Part shown: in pieces, positions 1,328 to 40,550 of the stretch
How positions within the stretch are numbered: position 1 is the first letter of the stretch
How the letters are laid out: every line of letters starts with the position of its first letter
Position numbers and translations under genes: made by a program
Origin: Fibrobacter succinogenes
Lineage (GTDB): Bacteria; Fibrobacterota; Fibrobacteria; Fibrobacterales; Fibrobacteraceae
Length of the DNA stretch: 43,963 nucleotides
NCBI GenBank assembly: GCA_902767785.1
Contig: CACXIR010000001.1
Location: forward strand, 1-43,963
Reading direction: 5' to 3'
The notes under the pieces: model-generated
The model's input: only the letters and a program-made list of their open reading frames with translations
Databases searched by the model: none
Told to the model about the DNA's origin: nothing

Positions 1328-1338
1328 ACAACACTCAG

Positions 1339-2559: not shown

Positions 2560-2569
2560 AAAGTACAAT

Positions 2570-17340: not shown

Positions 17341-18750
17341 CTAGAACGGCATCAAGTAAGCACCATTTAGCAACTGGGAGTACATGGATAGCAAAATGTC
17401 AGGGAAATAGCTGGAAACAGTGTTCGACACGGACTTTTTGTTGACCTCCTGCGTACAGGCGTCAAGCCAAGTCTTATTCCCCGCAATTCCCGTTGCACAC
17501 CAAGCACCAAGCCACTGACTAGGAATGGTGCCGCTAGCGGCCTTGTCTGGACCTAAATCGGTGTTCCAGGTATAGCTTGTTCCCAGGGCGTTTACATTGG
17601 TGGGGTCTCCGCTAGACTTCTTGGAAATAAAATCGTTCAGCGTAGTCAAAATGGCCTTGGCGCGGTCGTCTTGGAACCAGTAGTAATCCCACGCTATACG
17701 CCACGGAATACGCACGGATTCCTTATCGAAACGATACCATGTATAGGTGTTTTCGTTTTTCCCGGCTGCTCCGTTGGGAGGGTTCTTGGCAGCACCAGTA
17801 GCATCACTCCAATCGGGGAACACCCCTGTACCAGCATCCTGGATCTTTTTCATGTAGGTATACATGTTGTCCAAAACGCCGTTCCAATTGTGATTGCCGT
17901 CCACCTTAGCAAACAAGCGGATAGCCACGGGCGAGAAATAGCTCAGGTTATACGTGGGGTCGGTTGTCCACATGCCCGTATTTCCCGAAAGAATCAACAG
18001 GTCATTCTTCTGTATTTCCTCGTCCCAAATAGCATTGATAATCGTCTTGGCATCGTCCAGGTACTCCTGTTTACCAGTGCGGTAATTCATCAGTATCAGG
18101 GCCGTGGCAATGTCAAGGTCGGCATCCGTAGCACTAGAGGCATCAACCTTGCGGTAGTGGAAGCTTACCGTTTCCCAAGGCGTCAGTGCCTTCTTGAAAT
18201 ACGCCCTTTCTCCACGAGAGTAATTCCACAAACTATTGAAGGTTTCGTCGTCGCCGGCAAAATAAGACAAGAGCATGCCGTAGCCAATACCTTCAGACAC
18301 GGTACAAGCTCGGTTCACCATATTCGAGACCGAGGCGTTTTCGACCTTGCAATCGCTCTGGCTCGCCTGAGAAGACCAAATCACGCGGCCAACGGGGGAA
18401 TAGTTCCCAAACACTACGCCAAAGTCGCCCGCAAGTTTGGTGTAGTACACGGCTTCTGCTTCGCGAGTCACGTAATGGAAGCTGTGCCAGTTTTGATAAA
18501 TAGAGGCCGCATTATCCTTGCTTGCGGTAGCGGCCAACGGAACAGGAGAGACGTTCCCGGAGGGTCCACCGTTACCACCATTGCCGCCTTCGCCGCTACC
18601 ACCATTACCACCGTTGCCGCCCTCGCCACTACCGCCGTTTGGCTGCGTGGAATTTCCGTTAGGGACAGATGCAGGGTCATCCGAAGAGCAAGCCATGAAA
18701 AAAGCTAGCGCCCCGCAAACAAAAAACTGCAAAAATTTTCCAAATCGCAT
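17341..18750 (-). CDS. GH8 endoglucanase lipoprotein
   Basis: A 469-residue lipid-anchored glycoside hydrolase family 8 enzyme, hydrolysing beta-1,4-glucan (possibly also xylan or chitosan, as GH8 varies) with inversion. The lipobox is FFMAC (Cys21). A Gly/Asn-rich linker (about 39-62) carries two copies of a 12-residue unit. The catalytic domain holds the GH8 signature VSEGIGYGML with proton donor Glu153, TDADLDIATALILM with conserved Asp at 209-213, YFSPVAIRLF and RFDKESVRIPWRIAWDYYW, where Asp342 is the likely base by family alignment from memory. AAGGA precedes the start. A terminator follows the gene, and the upstream neighbour has its own terminator, so it is probably monocistronic. Confidence 0.93.
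   Translation of the reverse strand: MRFGKFLQFFVCGALAFFMACSSDDPASVPNGNSTQPNGGSGEGGNGGNGGSGEGGNGGNGGPSGNVSPVPLAATASKDNAASIYQNWHSFHYVTREAEAVYYTKLAGDFGVVFGNYSPVGRVIWSSQASQSDCKVENASVSNMVNRACTVSEGIGYGMLLSYFAGDDETFNSLWNYSRGERAYFKKALTPWETVSFHYRKVDASSATDADLDIATALILMNYRTGKQEYLDDAKTIINAIWDEEIQKNDLLILSGNTGMWTTDPTYNLSYFSPVAIRLFAKVDGNHNWNGVLDNMYTYMKKIQDAGTGVFPDWSDATGAAKNPPNGAAGKNENTYTWYRFDKESVRIPWRIAWDYYWFQDDRAKAILTTLNDFISKKSSGDPTNVNALGTSYTWNTDLGPDKAASGTIPSQWLGAWCATGIAGNKTWLDACTQEVNKKSVSNTVSSYFPDILLSMYSQLLNGAYLMPF
18565..18636 (-). repeat. Gly/Asn linker-coding tandem repeat in GH8 gene
   Basis: Codes for two copies of a 12-residue unit (GGSGEGGNGGNG). Repeated GGT/GGC and AAC/AAT codons make it a slippage-prone minisatellite. 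The neighbouring CBM11-like gene carries a related array. Confidence 0.8.
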
Positions 18751-18873: not shown

Positions 18874-19890
18874 CTACTTCACCAGAATCTTCTGGCTCAT
18901 GTTCACAGTCTTGCCAGCAATGCGGACCATGTACACACCGGCGTCGAGGCCAGCGAGGTTCATGGAAGCAGTGGAAGAGGCAGTGCCCTTCAGCATCACC
19001 TGACCCTGGAGGTTCACCACTTCAACCTTGGCATTGTCGATGCCAGAGAAGGAGAGGGTACGGCCAGAGAGGATAGCCTTGGCAGAAGAAATGCCGGTCA
19101 GAGCGATGGAAGCAGAACCGCCGTTACCGCCGTTACCGCCGTTACCGCCGTTGCCACCTTCATTGCCGCCGCCGTTGCCGCCAGCGCCGCAACTGCCCTT
19201 GGGGCCAATCTTCTTGATGTTGAAGTGATAGGTACCATCGGAGGCCTGAACCTTGAACTTGACAGCTACGAGGGTCTTGGCAGCATCGGCACCAGAAACC
19301 TCACCCCTCTTGTTTTTATCGCTGGTCTTAGCCCAAGCGGGCATTTCAAAGTCACTCCAGCCAAGATCCTTGCTAATGCCCGAGCCGGAGGGGAGGTCGG
19401 CCTTAGGAGGACCATAAGCCATGTCGGCATCGGCATCACCCTGACCCAATTCGAACATCACTTCGGCTTCGGAATCATAGACAATGCAGATACCGCCCCA
19501 GGAAGAAGCGTCAGCAGGGTCCGACTTGCTGGAATTGGTGGCGTTTTCACCAGCGACGTTGAAGCCCACGCCAGCAAAGCCATCGTAACCTTCGATAGAG
19601 CCCTTGTTGATTTTCATGTCTCCGCAAAGACCACCGCAGTGTTCAATGATGGGCTGCAGGGAGCCGGCACTGTATTCGTTACCCTTTTCTACGGGCCATG
19701 CAATGACAGAGCTACCACCGTCGTTACCGTCAGCATAATCCCACCAGTAACCAGAAGTTTCAGTGCCATTGTCCAAACCGGTCAGCACCCGTTCTTCACC
19801 AGTGGCACCATCCCACATCTTGAATGTGCCCGCGCCAAAAGCTGCGGAAGCAGCCATGGCAACAGATGTTGCTATAATTATCTTTTTCAT
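18874..19890 (-). CDS. secreted CBM11-like carbohydrate-binding protein with T9SS-like tail
   Basis: A 338-residue exported protein without an enzyme domain. A signal peptide (about 1-19, ending AFG) precedes a galactose-binding-type beta-sandwich (about 20-235) with GYWWDYADGNDGGSSVIAWP, the style of family 11 carbohydrate-binding modules and their Fibrobacter relatives; Cys85/Cys89 and Cys135 are present. A Gly/Asn linker (236-258) leads to a C-terminal tail of about 75 residues (AKVEVVNLQGQVMLKG and LDAGVYMVRI, ending KILVK) like T9SS sorting domains. It likely binds beta-glucan at the cell surface. AGAGAG precedes the start. It is divergent from the GH5 at 20123, sharing a 232-bp upstream region. 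Confidence 0.78.
   Translation of the reverse strand: MKKIIIATSVAMAASAAFGAGTFKMWDGATGEERVLTGLDNGTETSGYWWDYADGNDGGSSVIAWPVEKGNEYSAGSLQPIIEHCGGLCGDMKINKGSIEGYDGFAGVGFNVAGENATNSSKSDPADASSWGGICIVYDSEAEVMFELGQGDADADMAYGPPKADLPSGSGISKDLGWSDFEMPAWAKTSDKNKRGEVSGADAAKTLVAVKFKVQASDGTYHFNIKKIGPKGSCGAGGNGGGNEGGNGGNGGNGGNGGSASIALTGISSAKAILSGRTLSFSGIDNAKVEVVNLQGQVMLKGTASSTASMNLAGLDAGVYMVRIAGKTVNMSQKILVK
19117..19185 (-). repeat. Gly/Asn linker-coding tandem repeat in CBM11-like gene
   Basis: Codes for a chain of GGN triplets (residues about 236-258), with nearly identical 9-bp DNA units. It resembles the GH8 linker 0.5 kb away. Confidence 0.8.
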
Positions 19891-20025
19891 AGTTCTCTCT
19901 CTTTGTTGTGCCCCAAAGGGCCGTTTGGAGTAAAATATACTTTATTTTTTTTAAAAGGGGCCTGGCAAACAAAAAAAATTTTTTTTACACAGCTTTTTGG
20001 CGGTAGACAGTGTCTTGCGTCACTT

Positions 20026-20041
20026 GTTTACATGCGGAAAC
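20026..20041. promoter_or_regulatory. GTTT-N8-AAAC half-site pair upstream of GH5
   Basis: Half-sites GTTT and AAAC are spaced by 8 bp as in the stronger dyad at 31815-31834, but the centre is only weakly symmetric. It lies in the divergent region between the CBM11-like gene and the GH5 gene, 17 bp before the GH5 -35 box. It is a weak candidate for the same regulator. Confidence 0.25.
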
Positions 20042-20058
20042 TTTTTTTTTGATTTTAT

Positions 20059-22327: not shown

Positions 22328-22345
22328 CACAGAGACCATTACAAA

Positions 22346-22376
22346 AGGCTTGCGAACAAATCGCAAGCCTTTTTTT
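22346..22376. terminator. bidirectional intrinsic terminator
   Basis: Perfect 10-bp stem AGGCTTGCGA / TCGCAAGCCT, 5-nt loop, T run on the plus side and a shorter T run on the minus side. It serves the convergent GH5 gene and the six-gene operon ending at 22396. Confidence 0.93.
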
Positions 22377-22395: not shown

Positions 22396-23451
22396 TTATT
22401 TTTTCTTGGCAGGCTTGTAGTCGACACTTGGCCTAAGTTCAAGGCCAATGGTTACCAGCAAGGAAACAATGGGTTCGTGATGATCCTGGGAAAGGTCGTA
22501 CACGGCAACGCCTCCCATGCCTTCACCCTTGACCTGTTCCGCAACAGCCTTCACAGAGGGAATACCCATAAATACGATGGATTCCGATTCGCTAACAGCC
22601 ACCTCGGACTTCGAAGATTCGTCAAAGGTCACCTTGTAGTCGGGAGAATCGAACTTACCCATGAGCTCGGCATAAGAAAGGTAGCCTTCGTTACCGCTGC
22701 CGGTACCCTGATGGCTAGTTCCAAGGCCCTTGGCCCCGGCAAAGGACTTTCCATACAAGTAGACGACAGGCACCAACAGGTCCTTGTTTACGCCAGCGCC
22801 GGCTACAGCGTCCAGAGCCTCCTTAACGGAATTGGCACTCTGGTTGGGCACCAGGGTTCCAGATTCTTCTGTCATCTGGTCGGCCATGAACACATCCACA
22901 TAGGCAAGCTTGTTCAAAGCCTCGGCCTTGTAGGCAGACATTCCTTGAGCAGGGTATACCACTGCCGTCACCAGCTTTCCGTCCAATTCAGAATTAAGGG
23001 CATCCAACATTTTGGCGAAGTCGCTGGCATCTTCTTCGGCCAGGTTCTGCCAATCAAGCTCAACGCCGTCACCGCCCTTTTCTTGCAACCAGGACTTGAC
23101 ATTGGACACAAACTTTTTCAGAAGGTCTTCGGAAGAGGCAATGGCCTTCAGGCTACCCTCGGCCTCCATGCCACCCACAGAAACAACCAGCTTGACCCCA
23201 TTGTCCTTGGCCATCTGCACCAAAGTCTTGAAGTTTTCCGCATCGTTTTCGTCGGCAAAGGCAAGGGAACCGTCTTCACCGGGCAAAAGGGACGCATAAT
23301 GGATGTTGGTCACAAGTTTATAGCGAATGTCCTTGGGATAGAACTGGGAGTACTGGCTCCAATAAGGGTAGTAACCCACAACCTTATCGGCCGCACCATA
23401 GCAAAGGGCACATCCAAGGACTAAAGGGAGAATAAGCTTTTTGATATTCAT
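22396..23451 (-). CDS. GH18-fold protein lacking the catalytic Glu
   Basis: A 351-residue exported protein with a signal peptide (about 1-21) and a GH18 TIM-barrel: VVGYYPYWSQY at the N-terminus, LVVSVGG (motif SxGG) near 88-94, and the active-site strand GGDGVELDWQ (127-135). In active chitinases this strand reads DGxDxDxE; here the third position is Glu and the catalytic acid is Gln135, so ordinary chitinase activity is not expected. Known catalytically silent GH18 proteins act as lectins or inhibitors. A basic end (KPAKKK) closes the protein. It is the last gene of a six-gene operon, 14 bp after the lipoprotein gene, with AGGAG 5 bp before the start. A glycan-binding role at the surface or in the periplasm is inferred. 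Confidence 0.85.
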   Translation of the reverse strand: MNIKKLILPLVLGCALCYGAADKVVGYYPYWSQYSQFYPKDIRYKLVTNIHYASLLPGEDGSLAFADENDAENFKTLVQMAKDNGVKLVVSVGGMEAEGSLKAIASSEDLLKKFVSNVKSWLQEKGGDGVELDWQNLAEEDASDFAKMLDALNSELDGKLVTAVVYPAQGMSAYKAEALNKLAYVDVFMADQMTEESGTLVPNQSANSVKEALDAVAGAGVNKDLLVPVVYLYGKSFAGAKGLGTSHQGTGSGNEGYLSYAELMGKFDSPDYKVTFDESSKSEVAVSESESIVFMGIPSVKAVAEQVKGEGMGGVAVYDLSQDHHEPIVSLLVTIGLELRPSVDYKPAKKK

Positions 23452-23465
23452 ATGTACTCCTCACC

Positions 23466-24350
23466 TCACTTGATTTCGCGGGCAACACCGTTATCGTCGC
23501 AATAAAGCTTGCTCGTCGTTTCTTCCGGGCTAAGGACCGGCCTTACAGGGTTCTTCTTTTCATTGGATTTGCATGGACGATAAACCCACCCATGCAGGCG
23601 GCCATACACCACAAACTGGTACGCAATCGCCTCCAAATCAAGGGGAGCCTTCGCCAGCTTGGCCAAATCGTCCTCGGTATCGTACAGGTTGTAAAAAGCC
23701 AACAGCCCCTTCTGCAACAGAGTGAACGCCCCAGGCGTCACGTGCTGTACGGGGGTGCAAGTTTCTGTGGAATCATAGACGTTGCCCTGGCCCATCAGTA
23801 CAATGGAATCCCCACCCACAACATACTTTTTCGAAACAGCAGTGGTGGCGTCGTTGGCCTTGCCGTAAATGATTTCCATCAAGCCCTTGTCGGAGAAAGT
23901 GATGCTGTCTACGTAGATTTTTGCAGTGTCTGTCTTTTCCAAAATCAAGTTCACAATGCGGTAGGTCCTTTGAGTCACGCAGGAATCTTCTTCCGAAACA
24001 ACGGGGGTCCAAATATCTTCCCAATCATCTTCCGAAAAATGGAGCGCCAAGGGCGACACGAAAATTTCGTGAAGCTTGGCCGTGTCTCCATAAAAGGCTG
24101 TCGTGTCCTTGGACACCATTTCGGAAAAAGCATCCGACTCCATAGCTTCCTTCAGCGAATCGTTGTGAGTACTCACGAAGGTTCTAATTTGGATAGTCCG
24201 GAGTTCGGGGTGCAACTTGGCATAAACGGAATCCACAAAATCCTTGGGGAAGTTTCCCGTATACAGTTCATCGTCGTCAACTTCCATCGACGAACACGCA
24301 GCCATAAAGGCGGCAACCAGAGCGGTCAGATATAAGCGAAAGTGTTTCAT
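23466..24350 (-). CDS. lipoprotein of unknown function (six-gene operon)
   Basis: A 294-residue lipoprotein with signal MKHFRLYLTALVAAFMAAC (Cys19) followed by an acidic stretch MEVDDDE, a usual outer-membrane retention context. No known domain is recognised. The mature part mixes helices and strands, is acidic, and has four Cys, including CVTQRTYRIV, CTPVQHVTPG and two near the C-terminus. AGGGG precedes the start by 8 bp. It lies 11 bp after the third barrel gene and 14 bp before the GH18-like gene, so it is very probably a component of the same complex as the barrels. Confidence 0.75.
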   Translation of the reverse strand: MKHFRLYLTALVAAFMAACSSMEVDDDELYTGNFPKDFVDSVYAKLHPELRTIQIRTFVSTHNDSLKEAMESDAFSEMVSKDTTAFYGDTAKLHEIFVSPLALHFSEDDWEDIWTPVVSEEDSCVTQRTYRIVNLILEKTDTAKIYVDSITFSDKGLMEIIYGKANDATTAVSKKYVVGGDSIVLMGQGNVYDSTETCTPVQHVTPGAFTLLQKGLLAFYNLYDTEDDLAKLAKAPLDLEAIAYQFVVYGRLHGWVYRPCKSNEKKNPVRPVLSPEETTSKLYCDDNGVAREIK

Positions 24351-24361
24351 CTATATACCCC

Positions 24362-26488
24362 TTAGAAATTAACCGTGACATCTGCCACAAAAACATTCTT
24401 GTCGATAGACAAAGTCTTGTTCTCTACACTGGAACCTTCTTGAGTCCACTGGTAACCCAACTCGCTGTTGAGAACGCCATACTGGACCGAGAGGTAAGAA
24501 AGCGGTGCGATCTTCAGGCGGACACCTCCCAAAATCAGGGACTCCGTCGCCTTCTTGATGGCTATATTCTCTGAAATCCAGGCACCAGAACCCAGATGGC
24601 GTTCGTACTGCTGGTACCCGGCCAAGACCGCAATGGGCCCCCAGACATCCAGGGTGGCACCAGCGATGACGCGGCCAGCATTCCTCTTGTAGAAGGAGTC
24701 TTCTTCGCTATATCCATAGGAACCCTGCACCAGAAGCTGGCGGTCCAACCCAAACAGGGCCCCGAAATCCACTCCCAGGCCTCCGGCCATTTCGGTATAG
24801 TTGTTCTCTTCTTCAAGGGTCTTGTCTTGAGTCAGCTTCTTGAACCGGCCATTCAGGGTAATGGCGTCGTTCCACTTTAGGTCCATGCTCAAAGTAAAGC
24901 CCTTCCTGTCAGGGGTGGCCAGGCCATAGGGCTGGGCCAGATCCACCGTCGGGTCCACCAAAGAAAGCAGTTCGCCCATTTCCAGGCGCTTTAGCACCGC
25001 CGCCGAGTACCCATTGCGGTAAAAATGAGCGTTCTTATAGTTGTTGTCCAACCGGGAGTAAAGGTATTCGCTTTCACCGGTATTGCCAATGACATTGGAC
25101 TTTGAGGCGGTAAGCAAGTTGGTCGCATTCAAGCTGGAAGAATTGTAAACGCTAAAATAGAGGTTTTCCAGGCTAGAGGAACCAAAGTTGGCCATCACCA
25201 TGCTGTCAGAGGCTCCCGCATAGAAGGCATTGGAATTGAGGACCACCGCCCCGCCCCTATAGGTGGGAGTAGAGGCCATTTCAGACCAGAAGTCGTCATC
25301 TACTTGAAGGTACTGCCCCCTAACATCGAATTCGATGCTTGCAATATCGCCCTGGACAAAGGGTTCTACATAGAAGCTCCCCCCATGCAGCTTGGCATAG
25401 GATTCGTTCACAGTTTCTTGTCTTTTCCTGAACCTCGGGGCAATGTAGACAATGGAGTCAGAGGTACCATCGCCATAATACACCCTATCCTTTGTCAGCT
25501 CGTAATACTTCTCATCTTTTGCGGTCATGTAGTCCCTTTCTACTTCCCAGTTGGACTTGGCCATTTCTCCCTTTACTCCCAGATTCACAGGAAGGTTCGG
25601 CAACAGCTTTTTGGAATTGAAGCCAAACTCGCCCGATACAACCCGGTTGTCTTCATAATAAACCGTATCGGACGGAGCAATGGTCATAGAACGGCGGCTA
25701 AGGAAACGGTCAAAGGCGTCCACATAGTTCGCCCCCAAATACAAGCCCATGGCTTCGATTCCCAGGCGGCCGCCATAGACGTACCTGTCTGTAAAGTCGA
25801 AATCAAAGAACACCTGGTCGGACTTTTTACCGATATTCCTCATTCTGGACCCTGTAGCCTGGGCAAAAATATCATCGATAAATCCAAGCTCGCCGCTGCG
25901 GAACTCCACATTGAGGCCCTGCATCAAACGACGACTGGTGGTGTCCAGGTTCCTCTGCGAAAGCGCGTAGACGCGCTTTTCAGCAAAGATCTCCGGTTCC
26001 TGCAGCAGCTCCGGCTGGGGAGTCGCCAAGGTAAGGGGGGTATACCCTACGCGCATGTAGCCTAAATTGAAATTCAAGTGATTGTTCAAGATGGTACCAT
26101 CGTACGAGAACCAGTGCCCTATAACCGGGTTATTGTTTTCGTCGTACGCGTTCTGCCAATCTTTGTGCAGGCGCACTTCCAAATGAACCTCTGTTTCCGA
26201 ACTCGGATGAGCGGTAAAGACCAAATTCACGTCTGTGTAGGCCTGATTCTCTTGAGTGGGCGATTTTTCGGCAAACTGGTCGGACTTGGCCATGGAGGCA
26301 TTGCCCCCGGCCTTGGCCGTACCGTTTATCCTAAGGCCCAAAACAGCATCGTTCAAAGAATCCAGTTTTTCCAACAAAGACTTTTGCTGCTGCACAATAG
26401 TGTCCTGACTTTCAGCAAAAGCAGAAGACACGGAGAACAAAACAGCCAAGGCAGGTAAAATAACGAATTTTTTCATATTGTAGTTCAT
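24362..26488 (-). CDS. outer-membrane beta-barrel protein 3 of the operon
   Basis: A 708-residue predicted outer-membrane protein. A signal peptide (cut near AFAES) is followed by a short coiled-coil-like helix (QQQKSLLEKLDSLNDAVL), then alternating polar/hydrophobic strands with many aromatic residues. It ends in ADVTVNF, whose terminal Phe is a typical BAM-recognition signature. Segments such as LNFNLGYMRVGYTPLTL and VYGGRLGIEAMGLYLGANY look like barrel strands of a porin-like channel. It shows no SusC or TonB-box feature. The start at 26488 is preferred, with GAGG upstream; Met five codons in (26476) is possible. It follows the second barrel gene by 15 bp. Confidence 0.75.
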   Translation of the reverse strand: MNYNMKKFVILPALAVLFSVSSAFAESQDTIVQQQKSLLEKLDSLNDAVLGLRINGTAKAGGNASMAKSDQFAEKSPTQENQAYTDVNLVFTAHPSSETEVHLEVRLHKDWQNAYDENNNPVIGHWFSYDGTILNNHLNFNLGYMRVGYTPLTLATPQPELLQEPEIFAEKRVYALSQRNLDTTSRRLMQGLNVEFRSGELGFIDDIFAQATGSRMRNIGKKSDQVFFDFDFTDRYVYGGRLGIEAMGLYLGANYVDAFDRFLSRRSMTIAPSDTVYYEDNRVVSGEFGFNSKKLLPNLPVNLGVKGEMAKSNWEVERDYMTAKDEKYYELTKDRVYYGDGTSDSIVYIAPRFRKRQETVNESYAKLHGGSFYVEPFVQGDIASIEFDVRGQYLQVDDDFWSEMASTPTYRGGAVVLNSNAFYAGASDSMVMANFGSSSLENLYFSVYNSSSLNATNLLTASKSNVIGNTGESEYLYSRLDNNYKNAHFYRNGYSAAVLKRLEMGELLSLVDPTVDLAQPYGLATPDRKGFTLSMDLKWNDAITLNGRFKKLTQDKTLEEENNYTEMAGGLGVDFGALFGLDRQLLVQGSYGYSEEDSFYKRNAGRVIAGATLDVWGPIAVLAGYQQYERHLGSGAWISENIAIKKATESLILGGVRLKIAPLSYLSVQYGVLNSELGYQWTQEGSSVENKTLSIDKNVFVADVTVNF

Positions 26489-26503
26489 TTTCCTTACCTC
26501 CCA

Positions 26504-28675
26504 CTAAAATTCCACATTAATGGAAGCTTCCATTATAGTTTGAGAGAACTTGTGCCTGTAGTGGCCCGACTTGTCTTTTTCTACGTCGTAATAGTCGGGC
26601 AAGTTAAAGGCGTCTTTCGAAGACCCGGCCTCGACCAGGCCCGCAGTGTTGTACTTGTTCCTCACATAGACCTGACCAAAGTTGATGGACAACCAGGCAT
26701 CCTGTGCAACCGTATAGTCGAACCCGACCATCCACTGCTTCTGCTGGCCCTTCATCAATGGGGCGGCCAACCGCTGGAGTCCTGCGCCAATGTCGTTGTA
26801 TTCCGAGATAATGTACTGGGCCCCTGCAGTAAAGCCCAACCTGGGCAAGAACTGCAGGTAAAGTCCAGCATTCATAAAGTCGCTCTTGTATTCTCCAGTG
26901 CCAGCCGTACCGATAACGGCCGCATCAAAATCCATCTTGCGCTCGGAATGCTTGTAAGACCCCGACAGCTCCAGGGGCTTTGTAAAGCCCAGAAGCTTGA
27001 ACACGTCAAACTTCGCACCGCCGCCGTATTCCGTATAGGCCACCTTTTCAAAGCCGGTCACGGGGTTCACCTGCTGGAACATAGAGAACAATCCTTGAAC
27101 CTCCAGGAACTTCTGCAAGTTGAAGGTTCCCACTGCCTGGCCGCCAAGCCTGTTGGATGTGGCAAGGCCGTTGGGCAGGGACATCTGCAAGGCCGGATCG
27201 TCCAAAGTCTCTAACAGGGCTAGCTGAGACCGAGTATAGACATTGGTGCCCCAGGAATTCTTGTTGTAGGGGGCAATGTTGTAGCTCTCAGTCTGGCCAC
27301 CCTTCATGGCGCCGTCGTTTGTCCCAAGGCTCCTGGCCACAGGCGCAAACTTGGGGGCAAAATTGTAGAGGGCATCAAAGGTCGTATACAGGGGTGAATT
27401 CACCCCATATTTTACAGTGTTTCCGTCCTTGTCGGAATTCAGGATACGCTGGGCAAAGAAGCTGGGAGACTGGGCAAGGTTGTTGAACCAGTTGCTGTCG
27501 TTGCGAATGCCGTTAACCGCCAACACGGCACTCCAGCTATCGGTCTTGTAACCCAGGTTCATGGTGACCAGCACTGCAGAACCATTCAAATCCTCTTCGG
27601 TAACATTGTCCACAAAAACAGCCTGGCCATTTTCGTCGACGCCATTCTCTACCTGGATATGGTCATAAACCTTGTCCTGGGACATTGCATATTCTGCCAC
27701 CAGGTCCACCACCAAGTTCTTGCTTCCAAGAATCCCGGCCACGTCGGCACCAACCCTGCCGCTAGCAACGACGGTCTTCTGTGCATCGATGTCGTAGGGG
27801 TTTATGTCCTGCCGTTCGTAGGGCTTATCAAGCCTGTTTCCCGGATGGCGGTAGGTGTAGCTGTAGGAATCCTCGCCGTCAAAAATGTACATGGGCGTTG
27901 CACCCACGTAAACATTCTTGGAAAGGGGGAGCAGCTCCAAGTTGCCCGCCACTAACCACTTGTCCATGTTAGAGGCAAGGGTTGCTCCCGGGAGTTCCTC
28001 TTTAGCCATAATGTTGCCTTCGGCACCGGAAAAGTCCAAAACCGCCGTGCGATTCACGCGTGCAAACAAGGCTTCTGCACGGACCTCGCCCAACATGGGG
28101 GACAATTCCGTGCGGAACTGCAAGTTTGCACCCTGTAAATTGCGTTGGTTCCCCTCGATAAGCTGTTGCTTTTGGGCCATGTGGCGCTTACGGGCGAATA
28201 CCAAAGGTTCGTACATAATGTCTATGCCAGGCAAGAACAACGTCAGCGGAGAATACTGCTGCCGGAAATCGCCAACAACCCAATAAAAGGACTTGCCTAT
28301 ATTCCCTTCGACATTGATCCATTCCACCGACAAAGTCTTGGAGGCTGCAGCAAAATACTCCTGCATACCACCACCCAGGCGCATCATAACGTTAGCCCGG
28401 ACACTTTCGTAGGGGCGGAACCTAAAGTCCAAATCGGCACTTACAAACTCGTTCCTTTCTACATCGGGCATCTTGTTCAATCCCGAAGGGTCTTGATCCG
28501 TATCGAAACTGGAACGCTGAGCCACGGCCCGAATGCTACCGCCAATCTCTACACCACGTTTCGCCAAAACGGAATCTGCTTTAGCATCTAACAATTTCTG
28601 GTTGTCCGCTACAGCCGTGGCAGAAGCTACTACTGTAGACACCAAAAGGGCAATTGCACTTTTCTTCATATTCAT
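26504..28675 (-). CDS. outer-membrane beta-barrel protein 2 of the operon
   Basis: A 723-residue predicted outer-membrane protein. A signal peptide ending about ATAVA leads to a short helix (KLLDAKADSVLAKRG), then a first strand VEIGGSIRAVAQRSS and many amphipathic strands (ADLDFRFRPYESVRANVMMRLGG, LFSMFQQVNPVTGF, AGLYLQFLPRLGFTAGAQY). The protein ends TIMEASINVEF with a terminal Phe, as in BAM substrates. The phrase GDFRQQYSPLTLFLPGIDIMYEPLVFARKR parallels the GYTPLTLATPQPELLQEPEIFAEKR of the third barrel, so the two are distant paralogs. GGAGGGG precedes the start by 6 bp. Function is unknown; a surface channel or adhesin is likely. Confidence 0.75.
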   Translation of the reverse strand: MNMKKSAIALLVSTVVASATAVADNQKLLDAKADSVLAKRGVEIGGSIRAVAQRSSFDTDQDPSGLNKMPDVERNEFVSADLDFRFRPYESVRANVMMRLGGGMQEYFAAASKTLSVEWINVEGNIGKSFYWVVGDFRQQYSPLTLFLPGIDIMYEPLVFARKRHMAQKQQLIEGNQRNLQGANLQFRTELSPMLGEVRAEALFARVNRTAVLDFSGAEGNIMAKEELPGATLASNMDKWLVAGNLELLPLSKNVYVGATPMYIFDGEDSYSYTYRHPGNRLDKPYERQDINPYDIDAQKTVVASGRVGADVAGILGSKNLVVDLVAEYAMSQDKVYDHIQVENGVDENGQAVFVDNVTEEDLNGSAVLVTMNLGYKTDSWSAVLAVNGIRNDSNWFNNLAQSPSFFAQRILNSDKDGNTVKYGVNSPLYTTFDALYNFAPKFAPVARSLGTNDGAMKGGQTESYNIAPYNKNSWGTNVYTRSQLALLETLDDPALQMSLPNGLATSNRLGGQAVGTFNLQKFLEVQGLFSMFQQVNPVTGFEKVAYTEYGGGAKFDVFKLLGFTKPLELSGSYKHSERKMDFDAAVIGTAGTGEYKSDFMNAGLYLQFLPRLGFTAGAQYIISEYNDIGAGLQRLAAPLMKGQQKQWMVGFDYTVAQDAWLSINFGQVYVRNKYNTAGLVEAGSSKDAFNLPDYYDVEKDKSGHYRHKFSQTIMEASINVEF

Positions 28676-28690
28676 CTTTAACCCCTCCCC

Positions 28691-30928
28691 TTAGAACCAA
28701 GCCTTTGTTTCGGCGGAAATATAGTGGAAGTGGAAATCATTTATGGGAGCGGTCTCATCGGAATGAGTCATGTACTTATAGCGGACATGCAAGCCCACGC
28801 GAGCCGCCAAATCCCAGTCAAAGCCTAGGCCTATGGCGGTTTCCAAATAGTTGATGGGAGCCTTTTTATAGGCATACAGGTTCAAAGGCATGTCCGAGAC
28901 CGAACTCGAATACTCTTCTTGGAGGTAAGCTTTTTCCGAGCGGAAGGTTTCCATGCCAAGGATTCCAACCATGTGGAACGACGGCGTTACGGCAACTGCG
29001 GGTTCAAGCTGCCCGTAGAAGCTTGTCATCAACATATCCTTTTGCTTTTCGCTATAGGCGATAGGCGCAATAGTCGTCGAAATTCCCGATAGGGCAAAGT
29101 AGCCCGTCATCATGATATTGCGATCCGTGCCAAACCAGTGCCCGATATCGTAGCCACCCATAAAGGAGAAATAGCTGGACCACTTGGCATGGGTCGGCAC
29201 CTCGTCGTCTAGAGCCTGCTTGGCGTTGTCAAAGGCCACGAAGGATTCCCACAGTTCCCAGGTTCCACCAAAAAGGCCACCGGTCTGGCGGTACTGCTTA
29301 ACACCGCCCTTGGTAGTCTTGTTTGCACCAGCACGGGCTACATAGTGGGGTCCCGAGGCGTTGCCGGAGTCGGCAATGAACAAGGGCTTGTGCTTGGTCC
29401 AGGAATTGGTGCTTTCCCACATGTTGCGGCCATTCAGGCGGTAATTGAACACAATCACGTCCTTGGTTTTTTCAAGCTGGCGGTGCTGGCCATACTGCAC
29501 GTCAAAATACCCGCGGTTGAAGGTGGGTTCCAACTTGAAGTTCAAGCCGGCCATATTGGGGCCATAACGCAGCGAACCTCCATTCAGGTAGGCCTCTCCC
29601 TTACGCCAAGACGGGAAGCGGGAGGGGTTGCTCAAAGAATACGGCGAGTAGAACTCGGCAGGCAGGTAAATGGCTTCCAAAGTCATGGGCCAACCCTCGA
29701 TGTACTTGCTCTGGGCCTTTACATAAACGCCAACCTGAGGGTCGTTCCTGGAAGACTCGTAGGTGTCGCTAGAATACCCCGACGACTTGGAGGCGTCTTT
29801 CTCGTCGTAGCCGGCTACATCCTCGGACCTGTAGAACACCGAGGAATCCGTTACGCTCACGGCCACGTCTGCCATCAAGTAAAACTTCGGAGTGATATTG
29901 CCTCGAACATCCACCGTTCCCACATGGGTGTTCAGGAGCAACGGAACGCTGCCGTTCGACACCCACTGGTTGCGGAATTCCGGTTCGTAAATGATGGCAT
30001 CGTCGAATACGACGCCCATGTAGTTCAAGCCCACCGTCAGGTTTTCTGCGATTTTGTCTTTCGCCAAGCGAGCCGCATACACGCTTCCACGGTAGTCGTA
30101 GCTACCGGACATTTCCAGTTCACCGGGCTGGCCACCATACATACGCAAACCATCACGAGTTCCAGGATCCATGTCTGCAGGCTGGGAAACAAGGAACTGG
30201 GCGTGCATATCGAAGGGCAGCTGGTAAACGTTGGCATAAACGCCACCGAAAGAGCGGTTGGTCCAGAAGGCGCGGCCGCCTTCCTTGACAGGCTTGAAGG
30301 ATTTTTCCTTATAATAGGTGCTCACCGTCTTTTCGTCTTCGAACAGTTCGTACTGCCACACAAAACGGGGATTGGTTTCGCGTTCCCACATGGACAAAGG
30401 CGAGGTGTTGGCCCAAATAACGCCACCAGCGGTCACATAGGCTCCAAAAACCCCGGCACGGATATCTACGCCCACATTCAGTTCCTCGTTGATAGTGGAG
30501 GAATAGAAGTCCGTAGAGTGGTCAAACAGGACCCTTTCATCTTCGGTGGGGACGCCCGTGGGCTGTTTGCCCAGGGAGTTCGTATAAAGGCCGGTCAAGT
30601 CATAGGGCAGCATCAAGTTGGTGAACAAGGTGATGTAAGAGTTGGGCATCGCCACGATGTTCACATTCAAGAGGGCGTCCACGGACGTACGGGCATAGTC
30701 GTTCTGAACCCAAGGGCTCCGTTCAGAATAGTGGAAATTCTTTAAACGGAACGCCATGTAGCCAGACACGGCCAGCGGCAGGTCGTCCTTGCCCAGCAAG
30801 GTCGATTCCATGTTGCCCGAAAGGGTGTCCAGGGATGCATTTATGGAGTCCAGCTGCAACTGGGGCGGCAAGGCCATAGCGGAGCCCGCCAAAAAAGCAA
30901 GAGTAAGTACCGATACTATTTTACGCAT
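28691..30928 (-). CDS. outer-membrane beta-barrel protein 1 of the operon
   Basis: A 745-residue predicted outer-membrane protein. A signal peptide ending SAMA is followed by a helix (QLQLDSINASLDTLSGNM), then strand-rich sequence from LAVSGYMAFRLKNFHYSERSP onward. The shared plan of a short LDS-type helix followed by a glycine-rich first strand links it to the other two barrels. The protein closes with FHYISAETKAWF, again ending in Phe. Tyr and Trp are frequent, which suits a surface that contacts sugars. AAGGGG precedes the ATG. It follows the CBM-like gene by 9 bp and is the first barrel of the operon. Confidence 0.75.
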   Translation of the reverse strand: MRKIVSVLTLAFLAGSAMALPPQLQLDSINASLDTLSGNMESTLLGKDDLPLAVSGYMAFRLKNFHYSERSPWVQNDYARTSVDALLNVNIVAMPNSYITLFTNLMLPYDLTGLYTNSLGKQPTGVPTEDERVLFDHSTDFYSSTINEELNVGVDIRAGVFGAYVTAGGVIWANTSPLSMWERETNPRFVWQYELFEDEKTVSTYYKEKSFKPVKEGGRAFWTNRSFGGVYANVYQLPFDMHAQFLVSQPADMDPGTRDGLRMYGGQPGELEMSGSYDYRGSVYAARLAKDKIAENLTVGLNYMGVVFDDAIIYEPEFRNQWVSNGSVPLLLNTHVGTVDVRGNITPKFYLMADVAVSVTDSSVFYRSEDVAGYDEKDASKSSGYSSDTYESSRNDPQVGVYVKAQSKYIEGWPMTLEAIYLPAEFYSPYSLSNPSRFPSWRKGEAYLNGGSLRYGPNMAGLNFKLEPTFNRGYFDVQYGQHRQLEKTKDVIVFNYRLNGRNMWESTNSWTKHKPLFIADSGNASGPHYVARAGANKTTKGGVKQYRQTGGLFGGTWELWESFVAFDNAKQALDDEVPTHAKWSSYFSFMGGYDIGHWFGTDRNIMMTGYFALSGISTTIAPIAYSEKQKDMLMTSFYGQLEPAVAVTPSFHMVGILGMETFRSEKAYLQEEYSSSVSDMPLNLYAYKKAPINYLETAIGLGFDWDLAARVGLHVRYKYMTHSDETAPINDFHFHYISAETKAWF

Positions 30929-30937
30929 AAAAACCCC

Positions 30938-31681
30938 TTAAATCGCATTCCGGAACGGATAGTTGGACGGGCCTTCATAGGGCTTGCCGTGCTTCTTAAT
31001 TACAATATCGTCAATCCAAACCTTGAACGCTTCATTTTCGTCTTTACGGACTTCGAGACGGAAACCCTTGAAGTTTGCCCAGCTAAAGGGCAGCATCACT
31101 TCGCGGGTATTCTTTGCATCCCAGTAAACGCCTGTCATGCCAAAAAGCTTCAAGGGAATGCTAAAGTGCTTCCAGTCGGTGGTGATTTCGCCCAGGCTCT
31201 TGGAACGGAGCTTTACCTGCAGGGACTCGCCATTGCTCTTCACGCCGTCATCCACCAGCACGAACAAGGCGTTCTCGCCGCCCTTGTCACCCTTGATCCA
31301 AAATTCCAGCACGCCTTCCTCCAAGTAAGGAGTCAGGTCCACGGAACCCGCAATACAAATGGCCACGCCAGAGTAGTCGCTGGCAATAAGCTCGATTTCC
31401 ATGGAAAGGGCACCTTCCATGGCGTACTTGTCCGTGAGTACCGGTTCGGGGTTCTCGCGGGGGTACTGGTAAGTGTATCCACCGCCGCGGGGAATGGCTT
31501 CGCGCATCACCACGGTTACGACTTCTTTGTCTGGTCTAAAGGGTTTAGCCTCTTTTTGGACGAAACGACCCTGGTCGCGGTCACGGTAATCACTGAACCC
31601 GTAGCCCGCAAAGGACAGGGACGCCATCATCAGCGTCAAAAGGGCACTGCAACATAGAATCCGGCATGTTTTTGCATTCAT
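30938..31681 (-). CDS. secreted CBM-like (galactose-binding-fold) protein, first gene of operon
   Basis: A 247-residue exported protein. The start at 31681 gives signal MNAKTCRILCCSALLTLMMASLSFA; an earlier in-frame Met (31765) would add a long non-signal extension. The domain from about 60 to 240 is a jelly-roll of the CBM11/CIA30-like kind: ALSMEIELIASDYSGVAICI, LTPYLEEGVLEFWIKGDKGGENALFVLVDDG, TDWKHFSIPLKLFG, FKGFRLEVRKDENEAFKVWIDDIVIKKHG. The WIDDIVI ending is typical of these sugar-binding modules. No catalytic residues are recognised. It probably presents a glucan-binding site to the barrels encoded after it. A GGAG lies about 12 bp upstream, a weak ribosome site. Confidence 0.78.
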   Translation of the reverse strand: MNAKTCRILCCSALLTLMMASLSFAGYGFSDYRDRDQGRFVQKEAKPFRPDKEVVTVVMREAIPRGGGYTYQYPRENPEPVLTDKYAMEGALSMEIELIASDYSGVAICIAGSVDLTPYLEEGVLEFWIKGDKGGENALFVLVDDGVKSNGESLQVKLRSKSLGEITTDWKHFSIPLKLFGMTGVYWDAKNTREVMLPFSWANFKGFRLEVRKDENEAFKVWIDDIVIKKHGKPYEGPSNYPFRNAI

Positions 31682-31709: not shown

Positions 31710-31720
31710 AGTATAATATA
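31710..31720 (-). promoter_or_regulatory. candidate -10 region for the six-gene operon
   Basis: On the minus strand the run TATATTATACT offers several -10 matches (best TATACT), about 30 bp before the start at 31681. TTTAAA (31731-31736) could serve as -35 at 15 bp. Precise boxes are uncertain. Confidence 0.35.
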
Positions 31721-31814: not shown

Positions 31815-31834
31815 GTGTTTTCCTAGGTAAACAC
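31815..31834. promoter_or_regulatory. 20-bp dyad, candidate operator shared by glucan genes
   Basis: GTGTTT-T-CCTAGG-T-AAACAC is symmetric at 18 of 20 positions. It lies 81 bp before the GH5 at 31916 and 133 bp before the six-gene operon. A related 20-mer matching at 15 positions occurs upstream of the paralogous GH5 (35508-35527). Confidence 0.6.
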
Positions 31835-31915: not shown

Positions 31916-33061
31916 ATGAAAAAAAGCTTGTTCCTCTTAGCCGTCTTTGGATTGACCCTTGCCGCTTGTTCCGACGACGACTCCCCCACCAAGGCAAAAG
32001 AAAAAGAGGGTGAAGAAAGAACCGTTGTCGCCGTGGACTACACTGCCGGAAGGGCCATGAACCAAAGGCTTGGGAAAGGCATCAACCTGGGCAATTCCTG
32101 GGATTCCCAAAGTTGGGGCAAGCTGGACGGTGGCTGGGAAAACCCCATCGAAGACAACGACTTCAAAGTCATCAAAGAGGCAGGCTTTAACTCCGTTCGT
32201 ATTCCCGTCCGTTGGAACGAAGATTCCGACTACGAGACCCACAAAGTGAAGGCCGAACGGCTGGCCGGCGTCAAGGAAGACATTCAGCTGGCCATAGACC
32301 AGGGACTAGCCGTAGTGGTCAATTTCCACCACTATACCACCCTTAATGCCCTGGGGGGCGGATATTTTAGGGAAAAAGCCGACTCTACAGCCCTGTTTTT
32401 AGCGGAAAAAGAGCATTTCCTTGCCCTCTGGGACCAGGTTTCCAAGGAACTCAACTCCTTCCCCGACTCTCTATTGGTGCTAGAAATCTTGAACGAGCCT
32501 ACCATTCCCGGAGCAGAAATCGTAAACGACATCATGATGAGCGCCTATGAAGTCATCCGCAAGAACGCCCCTAAGAAAACGATCATGTTCGAAGCCTACC
32601 ACGCCGCAAAATTTGCCGATTTGACCGATCTCAAGCTCCCCGAGGACGGCAACATCATTTATAGCGGCCATTATTACGAACCCTACGAGTTCAGCCACGA
32701 GGGACACGGATACGAGTGCGTTGGCGACAAAGCCTACAACAGCACCGCCGCAGCAGACATTAAAGGCTACGTTCAGCTGGCACAAAAACTCTACCCCGAT
32801 GTCAACGGAGGACGCGTTCCCATGAACATGGGCGAGTTCGGCGTCTCTGGCGGTACGGGAACCCAAAGCTCATGCAGTGGTAGTGGCAAGACTTCTGATT
32901 CCAAAAAGGCTCTATGGGCAAAAAAAGCGGCCAAGGCCGCTGAATCCTATGACATTTCCTGGCATTACTGGGGATTCACCAAGGTGGGCGGCTTTGAAGC
33001 ATACAGCCGGAAAGACAGCAAATGGAACCCCGGTTTCCCGGGAGCCTTCTTTGACAAGTAG
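31916..33061 (+). CDS. GH5 endoglucanase lipoprotein (short paralog)
   Basis: A 381-residue lipid-anchored GH5 enzyme for beta-1,4-glucan. Lipobox LAAC (Cys18) is followed by an acidic and Lys-rich linker (about 19-38) and the catalytic domain: GRAMNQRLGKGINLGNSWDS, GFNSVRIPVRW, VVVNFHHY, LLVLEILNEP with acid/base Glu194, YSGHYYEPY, and NMGEFGVSG with nucleophile Glu307, then SWHYWGF. It has no extra module or C-terminal tail. CGGAGG stands 7 bp before the ATG. It is divergent from the six-gene operon and its stop is 5 bp from the stop of a longer GH5 paralog on the opposite strand. Specificity within GH5 is not resolved. Confidence 0.95.
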   Translation: MKKSLFLLAVFGLTLAACSDDDSPTKAKEKEGEERTVVAVDYTAGRAMNQRLGKGINLGNSWDSQSWGKLDGGWENPIEDNDFKVIKEAGFNSVRIPVRWNEDSDYETHKVKAERLAGVKEDIQLAIDQGLAVVVNFHHYTTLNALGGGYFREKADSTALFLAEKEHFLALWDQVSKELNSFPDSLLVLEILNEPTIPGAEIVNDIMMSAYEVIRKNAPKKTIMFEAYHAAKFADLTDLKLPEDGNIIYSGHYYEPYEFSHEGHGYECVGDKAYNSTAAADIKGYVQLAQKLYPDVNGGRVPMNMGEFGVSGGTGTQSSCSGSGKTSDSKKALWAKKAAKAAESYDISWHYWGFTKVGGFEAYSRKDSKWNPGFPGAFFDK

Positions 33062-35507: not shown

Positions 35508-35527
35508 CTGGTTTCCTTGGAAAACAA
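35508..35527. promoter_or_regulatory. CCTTGG-centred dyad, related to the 31815 site
   Basis: Contains GGTTT-CCTTGG-AAAAC, with inverted TTTCC / GGAAA arms. It matches the dyad at 31815-31834 at 15 of 20 positions and lies 56 bp upstream of the long GH5 start (35451). Confidence 0.45.
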
Positions 35528-38558: not shown

Positions 38559-40550
38559 CTAATGAATTAGGATGATTTTCCCGGTCGATTTCTTAGACCC
38601 TTTCCGAACCACATAGTGGTACACCCCCGGAGCCACCAGGTTCCCGTTCTTGTCGCAGCCATCCCATTCAGCACGGCCACCCAAAACTTCATTGTCGTAG
38701 AAAGACCTAACCAAGTTGCCACCGCGATTGTAAATACTCACAAAAGAGTCGTCCGCAATGTTGTCAATAAAAAGATGGTGTCCAAGTTTAGGCCTGAAGG
38801 GATTAGGGTAAGCCTTCACGCCGGCAGGAGCGTCCGATGTCATGAACTTTTCTGCGCTCCTCAAGTCATTGCGAGAATAACGGGTAACCCCCACGTCATG
38901 GGCAAACCAAGCCATGCCGAAAATAGAGTCTATGGCCATATCATGAATTCTGTTGCTCAACAGCCCATCTTTTGCCGTAAAGTGGACAACCGTCAACGTG
39001 TCCTTGGATTTTTTCTTTTTAGTGAGGCGGTAAGCCCCCTGATCCGAAGTCCCTAGCCAAATATTCCCTTGCACGTCCCTGTCAATGGAGGTGTATTCCG
39101 CACCCATCAATCCCTTTGTGGATCTCGGCTGTATCAAAGTATCTTGATCTTCATCCATATAGGCCAAATTTCCAACCGTTATCATCCACAAAGAGCCGTC
39201 ATCCTTGTCGAAGGCAAAATCTATAGGAGTCTTTCCTTCGGGAGAAGGATAATTTTTCTTTTGAGAAACTATGAGCCTGCCGCCATTTTTCGATGGAGGC
39301 AAAATACGGAACAAATCCAAAGAACCTGTAAGGGAGGCACGGAATTCATCCCTAGAAGAAACATAGACCAGCCACTCTCCCGTAGCTGAATCCAGCTTGG
39401 CAATCAAGGGACCCGCATTAGGAGTTGTCCCCACGGCCTTCGCACAGCTTATTTCGCCGGATTTGGAGACGTAAACCAATCCATATCCCGATTTTTCAGC
39501 TGTAGCGGCTAAAAAGCCAGACCGGTCTGGAGCTATGGTTGTGCCCACAGCTACCGTATATTTTTTCACAATCTGGTCCAGGCAACTATTTTCTTCGCTG
39601 GGGACAAATTCCCTAAAAAGGGAATATCCGTCATCTTCGTACAAAAACAGGCCCATCCCCCACACGTGGGCAAACAACATTCCATCGTCCACAGCCGAAA
39701 GGACCTTCATCCTATAATCGTAAGCCTCTATGGGGTTTCCAACACCCTTCCAAATGGGAATGGCGTCGTGCCAAATGCGTCCGTTGCTATAAGCCATCAT
39801 ACCTTGGGGAGTTGCAGCAACAACGCCTCCCTTGGAAACAGGCGTAAAGTTATAAACCGTCCCCAAAACAAAACCATCCATGATTGAATCTCGGGTCCCC
39901 GCTTTTTGAGGAGTACTTGCAGGAAATGCTACCGCCATTTTTTTCCAAGAAGCAGGATCCACTAGCCGCATATCCTTGGAAAGATTGGGCCAGTCCATTT
40001 TCCTCCCATAGGCAACATCCCCCAGCGAAACATACAGGGAATCGCCACGGGCCATTATTTTCTGCGGCGGTTTCGTGATAAGAGAGGATTCCCCAATTTT
40101 TTCAATAGACAAAAAGAACGCCTTGCTATCCGTTTGGAAAAACCCTAGCCTGTTTTCGAAGGCAACAACAATGACATTGTCCGCTGCGACAGCTTGCCCC
40201 GGAAGGACACGGACATTGCTATTCAGATATGAGCGGTTCACCACCTCCCATCGCCCCGATTTCTTATCGTAAGCAGCGATCAAGCCATATTCCGATATTC
40301 CATAAATCTTGGACGAAGTCTGAACGACTGCGTAGAAGCTGGTAGCCCCCAGGCCATCGGCCGATGTGAACACCTTCTTTAATTTTGGGGTTACAAACTG
40401 AATGCCGCCTTCTGTAGCGTAAACCGTTCCTGAATTATACGGTATGGACGAATGCACCGGGGAAGCAAGCGAAAAGACCTTCCATTCGTCGGCCAAGACC
40501 AATCCCGAAACCAGGAACAATAAAGCAAAAGTGTATTTTAAAAAACGCAC
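38559..40550 (-). CDS. PorZ-like beta-propeller protein with FlgD-type tail
   Basis: A 663-residue exported protein starting at GTG (40550), with signal peptide about 1-20 (cut after VLA). Repeated propeller blades follow: EWKVFSLASPVHSSIPYNSGTVYATEGGIQFV, GLGATSFYAVVQTSSKIYGISEYGLIAAYD, and late blades ADLVYVS-like and IDRDVQGNIWLGTSDQGAYRL, of the two-component-regulator-propeller kind seen in the T9SS component PorZ. The last ~90 residues (VKAYPNPFRPKLGHHLFI, GNLVAPGVYHYVVRKG, KIILIH) are an FlgD/T9SS-type Ig-like tail. In Porphyromonas PorZ helps attach T9SS cargo to the surface. Homology here is by layout, not proven. It follows the ECF sigma gene by 22 bp. Confidence 0.72.
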   Translation of the reverse strand: MRFLKYTFALLFLVSGLVLADEWKVFSLASPVHSSIPYNSGTVYATEGGIQFVTPKLKKVFTSADGLGATSFYAVVQTSSKIYGISEYGLIAAYDKKSGRWEVVNRSYLNSNVRVLPGQAVAADNVIVVAFENRLGFFQTDSKAFFLSIEKIGESSLITKPPQKIMARGDSLYVSLGDVAYGRKMDWPNLSKDMRLVDPASWKKMAVAFPASTPQKAGTRDSIMDGFVLGTVYNFTPVSKGGVVAATPQGMMAYSNGRIWHDAIPIWKGVGNPIEAYDYRMKVLSAVDDGMLFAHVWGMGLFLYEDDGYSLFREFVPSEENSCLDQIVKKYTVAVGTTIAPDRSGFLAATAEKSGYGLVYVSKSGEISCAKAVGTTPNAGPLIAKLDSATGEWLVYVSSRDEFRASLTGSLDLFRILPPSKNGGRLIVSQKKNYPSPEGKTPIDFAFDKDDGSLWMITVGNLAYMDEDQDTLIQPRSTKGLMGAEYTSIDRDVQGNIWLGTSDQGAYRLTKKKKSKDTLTVVHFTAKDGLLSNRIHDMAIDSIFGMAWFAHDVGVTRYSRNDLRSAEKFMTSDAPAGVKAYPNPFRPKLGHHLFIDNIADDSFVSIYNRGGNLVRSFYDNEVLGGRAEWDGCDKNGNLVAPGVYHYVVRKGSKKSTGKIILIH

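Follow-up and report, generated by a model that had tools for sequence, protein, structure and literature searches.

A six-gene Fibrobacter operon as a probable outer-membrane entry module for cellulose-derived glucans

Fibrobacter is a major degrader of cellulose in the rumen, but by what route do fragments of cellulose pass its outer membrane? We address this standing question through an operon in a 43,963-nucleotide stretch of Fibrobacter succinogenes DNA (GCA_902767785.1, CACXIR010000001.1, positions 1 to 43,963; hereafter the window), which is contig C1 of a Fibrobacter metagenome assembly of 2.53 Mb, 88% complete. Six co-directional open reading frames on its minus strand encode two binding-type proteins, a lipoprotein and three large outer-membrane proteins. 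We propose that this operon is probably an outer-membrane capture-and-entry module for cellulose-derived glucans or cello-oligosaccharides, doing the job of the SusC/SusD pair (SusCD) of Bacteroidota with unrelated proteins. Uptake appears to be the most likely role of these genes because their relatives lie, phylum-wide, in synteny with importers, a cellulase and a phosphorylase. The operon consists of the following features (window positions):

30938..31681, minus strand: gene 1, secreted CBM30-only protein of 247 residues (Pfam)
28691..30928, minus strand: gene 2, outer-membrane protein of a phylum-wide family, 745 residues, probable barrel (signal peptide, C-terminal Phe)
26504..28675, minus strand: gene 3, probable outer-membrane barrel of 723 residues (collinear alignment with its paralogue, gene 4)
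24362..26488, minus strand: gene 4, outer-membrane barrel of 708 residues, modelled with about 22-24 strands (AlphaFold, Foldseek)
23466..24350, minus strand: gene 5, fast-evolving lipoprotein of 294 residues (lipobox)
22396..23451, minus strand: gene 6, non-catalytic GH18-fold protein of 351 residues (Pfam GH18)
22343..22373, minus strand: intrinsic terminator, a 13-pair stem with a T-run, separating the operon from a convergent GH5 gene

Conservation of the operon and its phylum-wide synteny

The genes are separated by gaps of 9, 15, 15, 11 and 14 bp, and the coordinates and the stem with its T-run agree with the six-gene layout and single strong terminator described in the initial annotation. 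Is the grouping more than chance? Seventeen Fibrobacter loci were fetched with gene 3, and all 16 whose contig spans the operon carry the six genes in identical order and strand (the other, L007, ends inside gene 2 at a contig end). Gaps in the Fibrobacter loci are nearly all 7-27 bp, with a single gap of 72 bp, and four loci of the family outside these 17 (L054 and L060-L062) also hold the complete operon. Since order and gaps recur in 16 of 16 covering loci, the grouping is not accidental: the six genes are a real unit, and the comparison of gene order that had been suggested found them intact rather than scattered in relatives. Across Fibrobacter, gene 1 is the most conserved (79-92% identity) and the lipoprotein, gene 5, the least (23-57%).

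What accompanies these genes outside the genus? A gene-2 profile matched 130 of 151 genomes, from 31 of the 41 sampled Fibrobacterota genera. Beyond the family and the lineages closest to it, the core consists of gene 2, one gene-3/4 barrel and a Cel51A-type CBM30/CBM11/GH51 cellulase (remote loci were annotated by profile and BLAST, with examples checked by Pfam). The Cel51A-type proteins of remote loci are 47-50% identical over ~740 residues to the Cel51A homologue of the window's own genome, and the one run against Pfam contains both CBM30 and CBM11. Thirty loci with enough flanking sequence were counted, and in 22 of them (L064 and L067 were not counted as importer-linked) a complete or truncated ATP-binding cassette (ABC) importer adjoins the core. 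In 19 of the 30, from 10 genera and 3 families, an SBP_bac_5 (SBP5) importer or part of one directly adjoins gene 2, on the same strand or divergently; three of these are partial, with only ATPase genes within the contig at L055 and L077 and SBP5 alone at L059. Another importer family takes the same position at three loci of class genus g5, with SBP_bac_1 and a MalK-type ATPase recognised by Pfam at L063 and L066; at L065 the ATPase was found by BLAST, and Pfam recognised the permease only in the overlapping locus L045. Eight loci carry a GH94 phosphorylase label. At L058, SBP5, two permeases, two ATPases, gene 2, gene 3, Cel51A and GH94 follow each other in this order on one strand. Chance adjacency of SBP5 should be rare, an estimated less than 1% per locus, because the seven genomes checked contain just 2-6 SBP5 genes each in 2.7-6.6 Mb. 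Moreover, the presence of two unrelated importer families at one position would argue for a shared role, the uptake of a cellulase product.

L058 and its relatives hold all the components by which a functional glycan utilisation locus is defined, namely a binding protein, an outer-membrane protein, an importer and glycan-active enzymes; the window itself has only the outer-membrane part, together with flanking cellulases. The initial annotation had seen in the set a possible substitute for SusCD that would hold or import glucan chains, a suggestion that gains support from this phylum-wide locus with its Cel51A-type cellulase, its SBP5- or CUT1-type importer and, in some cases, GH94. Upstream of the SBP5-barrel-Cel51A-GH94 locus, L058 and L068 also carry a FecR/TPR/PEGA-domain gene, a possible sensor or regulator.

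Could the substrate be a different glycan? In class genus g5, homologues of genes 1-4 adjoin GH20 and GH18s that retain the catalytic DxDWE motif, hinting at a substrate there that contains N-acetylglucosamine (GlcNAc). This neighbourhood, and the GH18 fold retained by gene 6, would fit a module for GlcNAc oligosaccharides of chitin or N-glycan type, or for mixed beta-glucans, instead of cellodextrins. We consider this quite unlikely for the Fibrobacter operon, whose nearest flanks are GH5/GH8 cellulase-type genes and which itself contains a CBM30; the remote linkage to Cel51A and GH94 and the cellulose binding reported for the gene 6 counterpart of strain S85 also speak against it. At L040, L041 and L042, also of class genus g5, a second, four-gene form of the module lies next to intact-motif GH18s and GH20, and is possibly a chitin-type version.

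The three outer-membrane proteins

Are the products of genes 2-4 barrels? Each has a signal peptide and a C-terminal Phe, and across relatives Phe is the last residue in 56 of 56 gene-2 homologues and in 65 of 66 gene-3/4 homologues. Genes 2-5 gave no above-cut-off match in Pfam or NCBIfam, gene 2 had none in the PDB either, and a PDB sequence search with both barrel profiles returned nothing credible. The AlphaFold model of gene 4 (31 sequences; pLDDT 70, pTM 0.68) is a barrel with no separate plug domain, in which we counted about 22-24 strands manually from the strands listed. So modelled, gene 4 combines the general features of an outer-membrane barrel: the fold, a signal peptide and a C-terminal aromatic residue. 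An insert at residues ~397-528 has low model confidence, yet 27% of its positions are invariant in the genus. The best Foldseek matches of the model were all membrane barrels (ushers, AlgE, MOMP, maltoporin and OprC), with E-values down to 4e-9 and TM-scores of only about 0.2-0.5. Because these scores are low, the exact architecture is, to judge from the model, either new or poorly modelled.

Genes 3 and 4 are collinear paralogues with 21-24% identity, and gene 3 is a probable outer-membrane barrel. Gene 2 is probably one as well: when remote homologues were added, comparison of its profile with that of genes 3/4 gave a weak but whole-length match (probability 73%, E 3e-5), and the same comparison limited to the genus gave no signal. 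The initial annotation had described three large, barrel-like proteins ending in Phe; the signal peptides, the terminal Phe and the gene 4 barrel fit this, but the AlphaFold model of gene 2 (pLDDT 43) was too poor for a fold search. Relatives of gene 2 at some Fibrobacter loci (L010-L014) carry a ~90-residue N-terminal extension rich in Pro, Ala and Glu, absent from the window copy. In a quick tree, genes 3 and 4 form separate clades, each with members of families f1, f2 and f3, and a third clade consists of the single barrel of the remote loci. The gene 3/4 duplication would thus be older than the f1/f2/f3 split, each clade having members in all three families.

Barrels of this kind could instead work outward, as outer-membrane export channels for cellulases or for the products of genes 1 and 6. 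Pilus ushers are among the best fold matches of gene 4, if at low TM-scores, and neither gene 1 nor gene 6 has a type IX tail, yet their S85 counterparts occur in the medium. Nonetheless, no chaperone or pilin-type partner was present in any locus read, and linkage to an ABC importer and a phosphorylase points inward, so that we regard a secretion role as very unlikely. The barrels might also be general porins, unselective for glucans, whose genes simply accompany those of cellulases; the plugless gene 4 model and the lack of a known family would fit this. This explanation seems to us scarcely credible, since the genes keep a fixed order with CBM30 partners phylum-wide and, at 700-900 residues, their products are far larger than ordinary porins.

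Binding-type proteins, strain S85 and local context

Which proteins might present the glucan to the barrels? Gene 1, first described as a secreted sugar-binding fold, is a CBM30 protein (PF21582, E 1.2e-17, 64.9 bits against a curated cut-off of 27), with 38-44% identity to the first of the CBM30 domains in Cel51A-type proteins; CBM30 is a family for which binding of single glucan chains is known (PMC3079729). Gene 5 was rightly called an unassigned lipoprotein: it has the lipobox MAAC-SSMEVDDD and no Pfam match. The lipobox and the acidic stretch after the Cys are retained in most orthologues, and fast evolution together with this stretch suggests surface exposure. Gene 6 matches PF00704 (GH18) over the whole domain (E 4.2e-35, 122 bits, residues 23-323, profile positions 1-317 of 317), as expected of a GH18 superfamily fold. 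In its motif DGVELDWQ, the catalytic Glu of DxxDxDxE is replaced by Gln, in line with the GH18 fold without catalytic Glu noted initially, and the protein lacks the signature of a GH18 chitinase:

23047..23049, minus strand: codon of Gln135, the GH18 catalytic position in DGVELDWQ (gene 6 sequence and alignment)

Orthologues carry DG[VIL]E[LVI]DWQ or close variants, with the Gln invariant throughout the aligned Fibrobacter, and deeper family members (L060, L062) have lost the GH18 motif by other routes. The predicted product is a pseudo-enzyme. A candidate lipobox in gene 6 (VLGC) was rejected, its Cys not being conserved. Pfam found no Por_Secre_tail, the mark of type IX cargo, on genes 1 and 6; the neighbours 18874- and 19997+ have one.

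We take the operon to correspond to Fisuc_1525-1530 of S85 by locus numbers and domains, because each of the two number series, 1525-1530 and 2007-2012, has room for exactly six genes. The cellulose-binding proteins of this region were reportedly first described by Jun et al. in 2007. Published S85 assignments are GH5 for Fisuc_1523/FSU_2005, CBM30-only for Fisuc_1525/FSU_2007 and GH18 'chitinase' for Fisuc_1530/FSU_2012, the last recorded as cellulose-binding (PMC3079729). Fisuc_1525 was found in the cell envelope on all substrates, glucose and cellulose alike (PMC4619616), and, in another study, solely in the medium (PMC4668043). Fisuc_1530 was detected at the outer membrane as well as in the medium, with an almost six-fold excess in the latter (PMC4668043). 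Fisuc_1530 belongs to the CAZyme genes with high and stable expression whichever sugar is supplied (PMC6204037); the protein itself is 1.3-fold less abundant on cellulose (PMC6851124). These data do not support the change in expression on cellulose that the initial annotation expected; like Cel51A, the operon seems to be expressed constitutively and not by induction. Chitinase activity has been measured in S85 cells (PMC6851124). If the S85 counterpart of gene 6 has the same Gln, it is an unlikely source, because the catalytic Glu is Gln in Fibrobacter orthologues.

Do the barrels merely anchor or display the CBM30 and GH18-fold proteins for attachment to cellulose, with no transport? Constitutive expression of Fisuc_1530 would suit such an adhesion scaffold, as would the glucan-binding types of genes 1 and 6 and the report of the gene 6 counterpart of S85 as a cellulose-binding envelope protein. 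However, three large barrels would be a costly anchor, and the importer and GH94 linkage of the remote gene 2-3 relatives would be left unexplained; we judge this explanation unlikely.

The near flanks of the operon are three GH5 cellulases (31916+, 33067- and 19997+), of which one is a lipoprotein and one, 19997+, has a type IX sorting tail; a GH8 gene lies farther away (17341-). The statement that all flanking genes encode cellulases or cellulose-binding proteins holds for these nearest GH5/GH8 genes and fails beyond them, as 18874- has a type IX tail only, genes for polyA polymerase and DsbD lie farther out and the remainder of the window is mixed. 19997+ was considered as the counterpart of the GH9 neighbour in S85 and rejected, being a GH5 with a type IX tail. 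Acidic residues directly follow the lipoprotein Cys at 31916-33061 (plus strand, CSDDD), 23466-24350 (minus, CSSMEVDDD) and 17341-18750 (minus, CSSDD), stretches that we take to resemble the surface-export signal of Bacteroidota. Sorting tails (type IX or CHU_C-like) occur on unassigned proteins near cellulases at 18874-19890, 38559-40550 and 3494-6916, all on the minus strand.

How might the region be controlled? Two kinds of candidate site were found:

31713..31720, minus strand: probable -10 element TATATTAT of the operon promoter, conserved as TATATTRT in a 12-species alignment
31816..31833, no strand: palindrome TGTTTWC-N4-GWAAACA, candidate regulator site between the operon and the divergent GH5 gene
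35509..35526 and 20025..20042 in the window, and L093:2843, L094:2835 and L098:1501: the other palindrome sites listed

A recognisable version of the 18-bp palindrome aligns in 12 species. Counting the one beside the operon, the genome has three exact copies. The remaining two precede GH9 cellulases, by 55 and 73 bp, and a site with one mismatch lies ~58 bp upstream of GH5 33067-, so that each of the four stands about 55-85 bp before a GH5 or GH9 cellulase. Three further one-mismatch sites have no GH5/GH9 neighbour. Genome G068 has two copies, of which one precedes a putative GH9 gene (by reading, not Pfam) by 62 bp. The exact palindrome is absent from two other complete Fibrobacter genomes and is thus, as a putative site, drifted or clade-specific. 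The palindrome may act as operator for a cellulase regulon. With ~95 bp separating it from the -10 of the operon, it may serve the divergent GH5 instead of the operon.

The proposed route and its relation to known systems

What would be the path of a glucan through this machinery? At the surface, the CBM30 protein (gene 1) and the inactive GH18 (gene 6), assisted by the lipoprotein (gene 5), would hold single glucan chains or cellodextrins; the chain or oligomer would then pass to the periplasm through a wide channel built from the barrels (genes 2-4). There, GH51/GH9 enzymes, which have been reported in the S85 periplasm (PMC4668043), would trim the incoming glucan, an ABC importer would take up the fragments at the inner membrane and a GH94 enzyme would phosphorolyse them in the cytoplasm. 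The steps beyond the barrels draw on the remote loci and on S85 proteomics, not on the window. We infer that the operon proteins assemble into a single complex, that barrels come from genes 2 and 3 as well as from gene 4, that these transport glucan and that the steps run in this order. Energised entry is possible: no plug is seen, but an ExbB/ExbD/TonB cluster (FSU_2400-2403) is reported as cellulose-induced (PMC6851124).

Several observations weigh against this role. The Fibrobacter operon has no adjoining importer or phosphorylase, and in class genus g5 the closest relatives of genes 1-4 have the chitin-type neighbours described above. Transport or binding by genes 2-5 is putative, the gene 2 model is too poor to prove a barrel, Fisuc_1530 expression is constitutive rather than cellulose-induced (PMC6204037), and the actual receptors for cellodextrins could be the two TonB-dependent barrels that the genome encodes elsewhere. 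Capture and entry of cellulose-derived glucans nevertheless remains our preferred role for the operon. More doubtful, if conceivable, is the bolder proposal that genes 2-4 are a new class of plugless multi-barrel importer, threading single cellulose chains or long cellodextrins from the CBM30 and GH18-fold receptors into the periplasm. If true, it would provide the transporter lacking from the Fibrobacter model in which cellulose enters the periplasm, and a phylum-wide alternative to SusCD. Raut et al. 2019 called the mechanism of cellodextrin transport unknown and proposed a TonB-dependent route (PMC6851124), and other models dispute whether chains enter the periplasm (PMC4668043). With specific candidates now named, Fisuc_1526-1528 together with 1525, 1529 and 1530 (S85, by locus number), the uptake question becomes directly testable.

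How does the operon compare with known systems? The PopA radial-oligomer porins (FSU_2404, FSU_0230) are likewise Fibrobacter outer-membrane barrels, with 16 strands and an oligomerisation loop 8 (PMC12228718); genes 2-4 were rejected as members, gene 4 having about 22-24 strands in its model and the locus tags being different. Fibrobacter Cel51A (endoglucanase F, Fisuc_3111: CBM30-CBM30-CBM11-GH51) has its homologue as the third gene of the remote core, whereas in this genome it lies on another contig, of 10 kb and with no barrel gene, and the operon keeps a free CBM30 only. That contig (G000:C98, L053) also carries TolB- and TPR-type genes, and its Cel51A homologue (46-3200) is split over two overlapping frames of 814 and 340 residues, through either a frameshift or a fault in the assembly.

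Chi-lectin-like GH18 proteins such as concanavalin B keep the fold with a Glu to Gln change, as gene 6 does; gene 6 differs in that the reported ligand of its S85 counterpart is cellulose and that it belongs to an outer-membrane barrel operon. SBP5-type importers of cellobiose and cellodextrins (CbtA-type) with GH94 resemble the remote loci, which contain SBP_bac_5, two permeases, two ATPases (one with oligo_HPY) and GH94. The known operons have, to our knowledge, no dedicated outer-membrane barrels, whereas the Fibrobacterota loci include two, next to an SBP5 whose ligand is putative.

SusD (PF07980) is absent from this 88% complete assembly, a control Bacteroides genome being positive, and genes 2-4 gave no Pfam match to a TonB-receptor barrel or plug; membership in SusCD was rejected on these grounds. 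The initial claim that no SusC/SusD-type gene is present stands for the window and, for SusD, genome-wide, but two TonB-receptor barrels are encoded elsewhere in the genome. GH18-fold surface glycan-binding proteins occur in some Bacteroides loci. Compared with SusC/SusD loci, the operon differs in a gene 4 model with no separate plug and in the ABC importer that remote loci use at the inner membrane; as in SusC/SusD loci, surface glycan-binding proteins, outer-membrane barrels and glycanases are combined in one locus, and that it works like SusCD is what we infer foremost.

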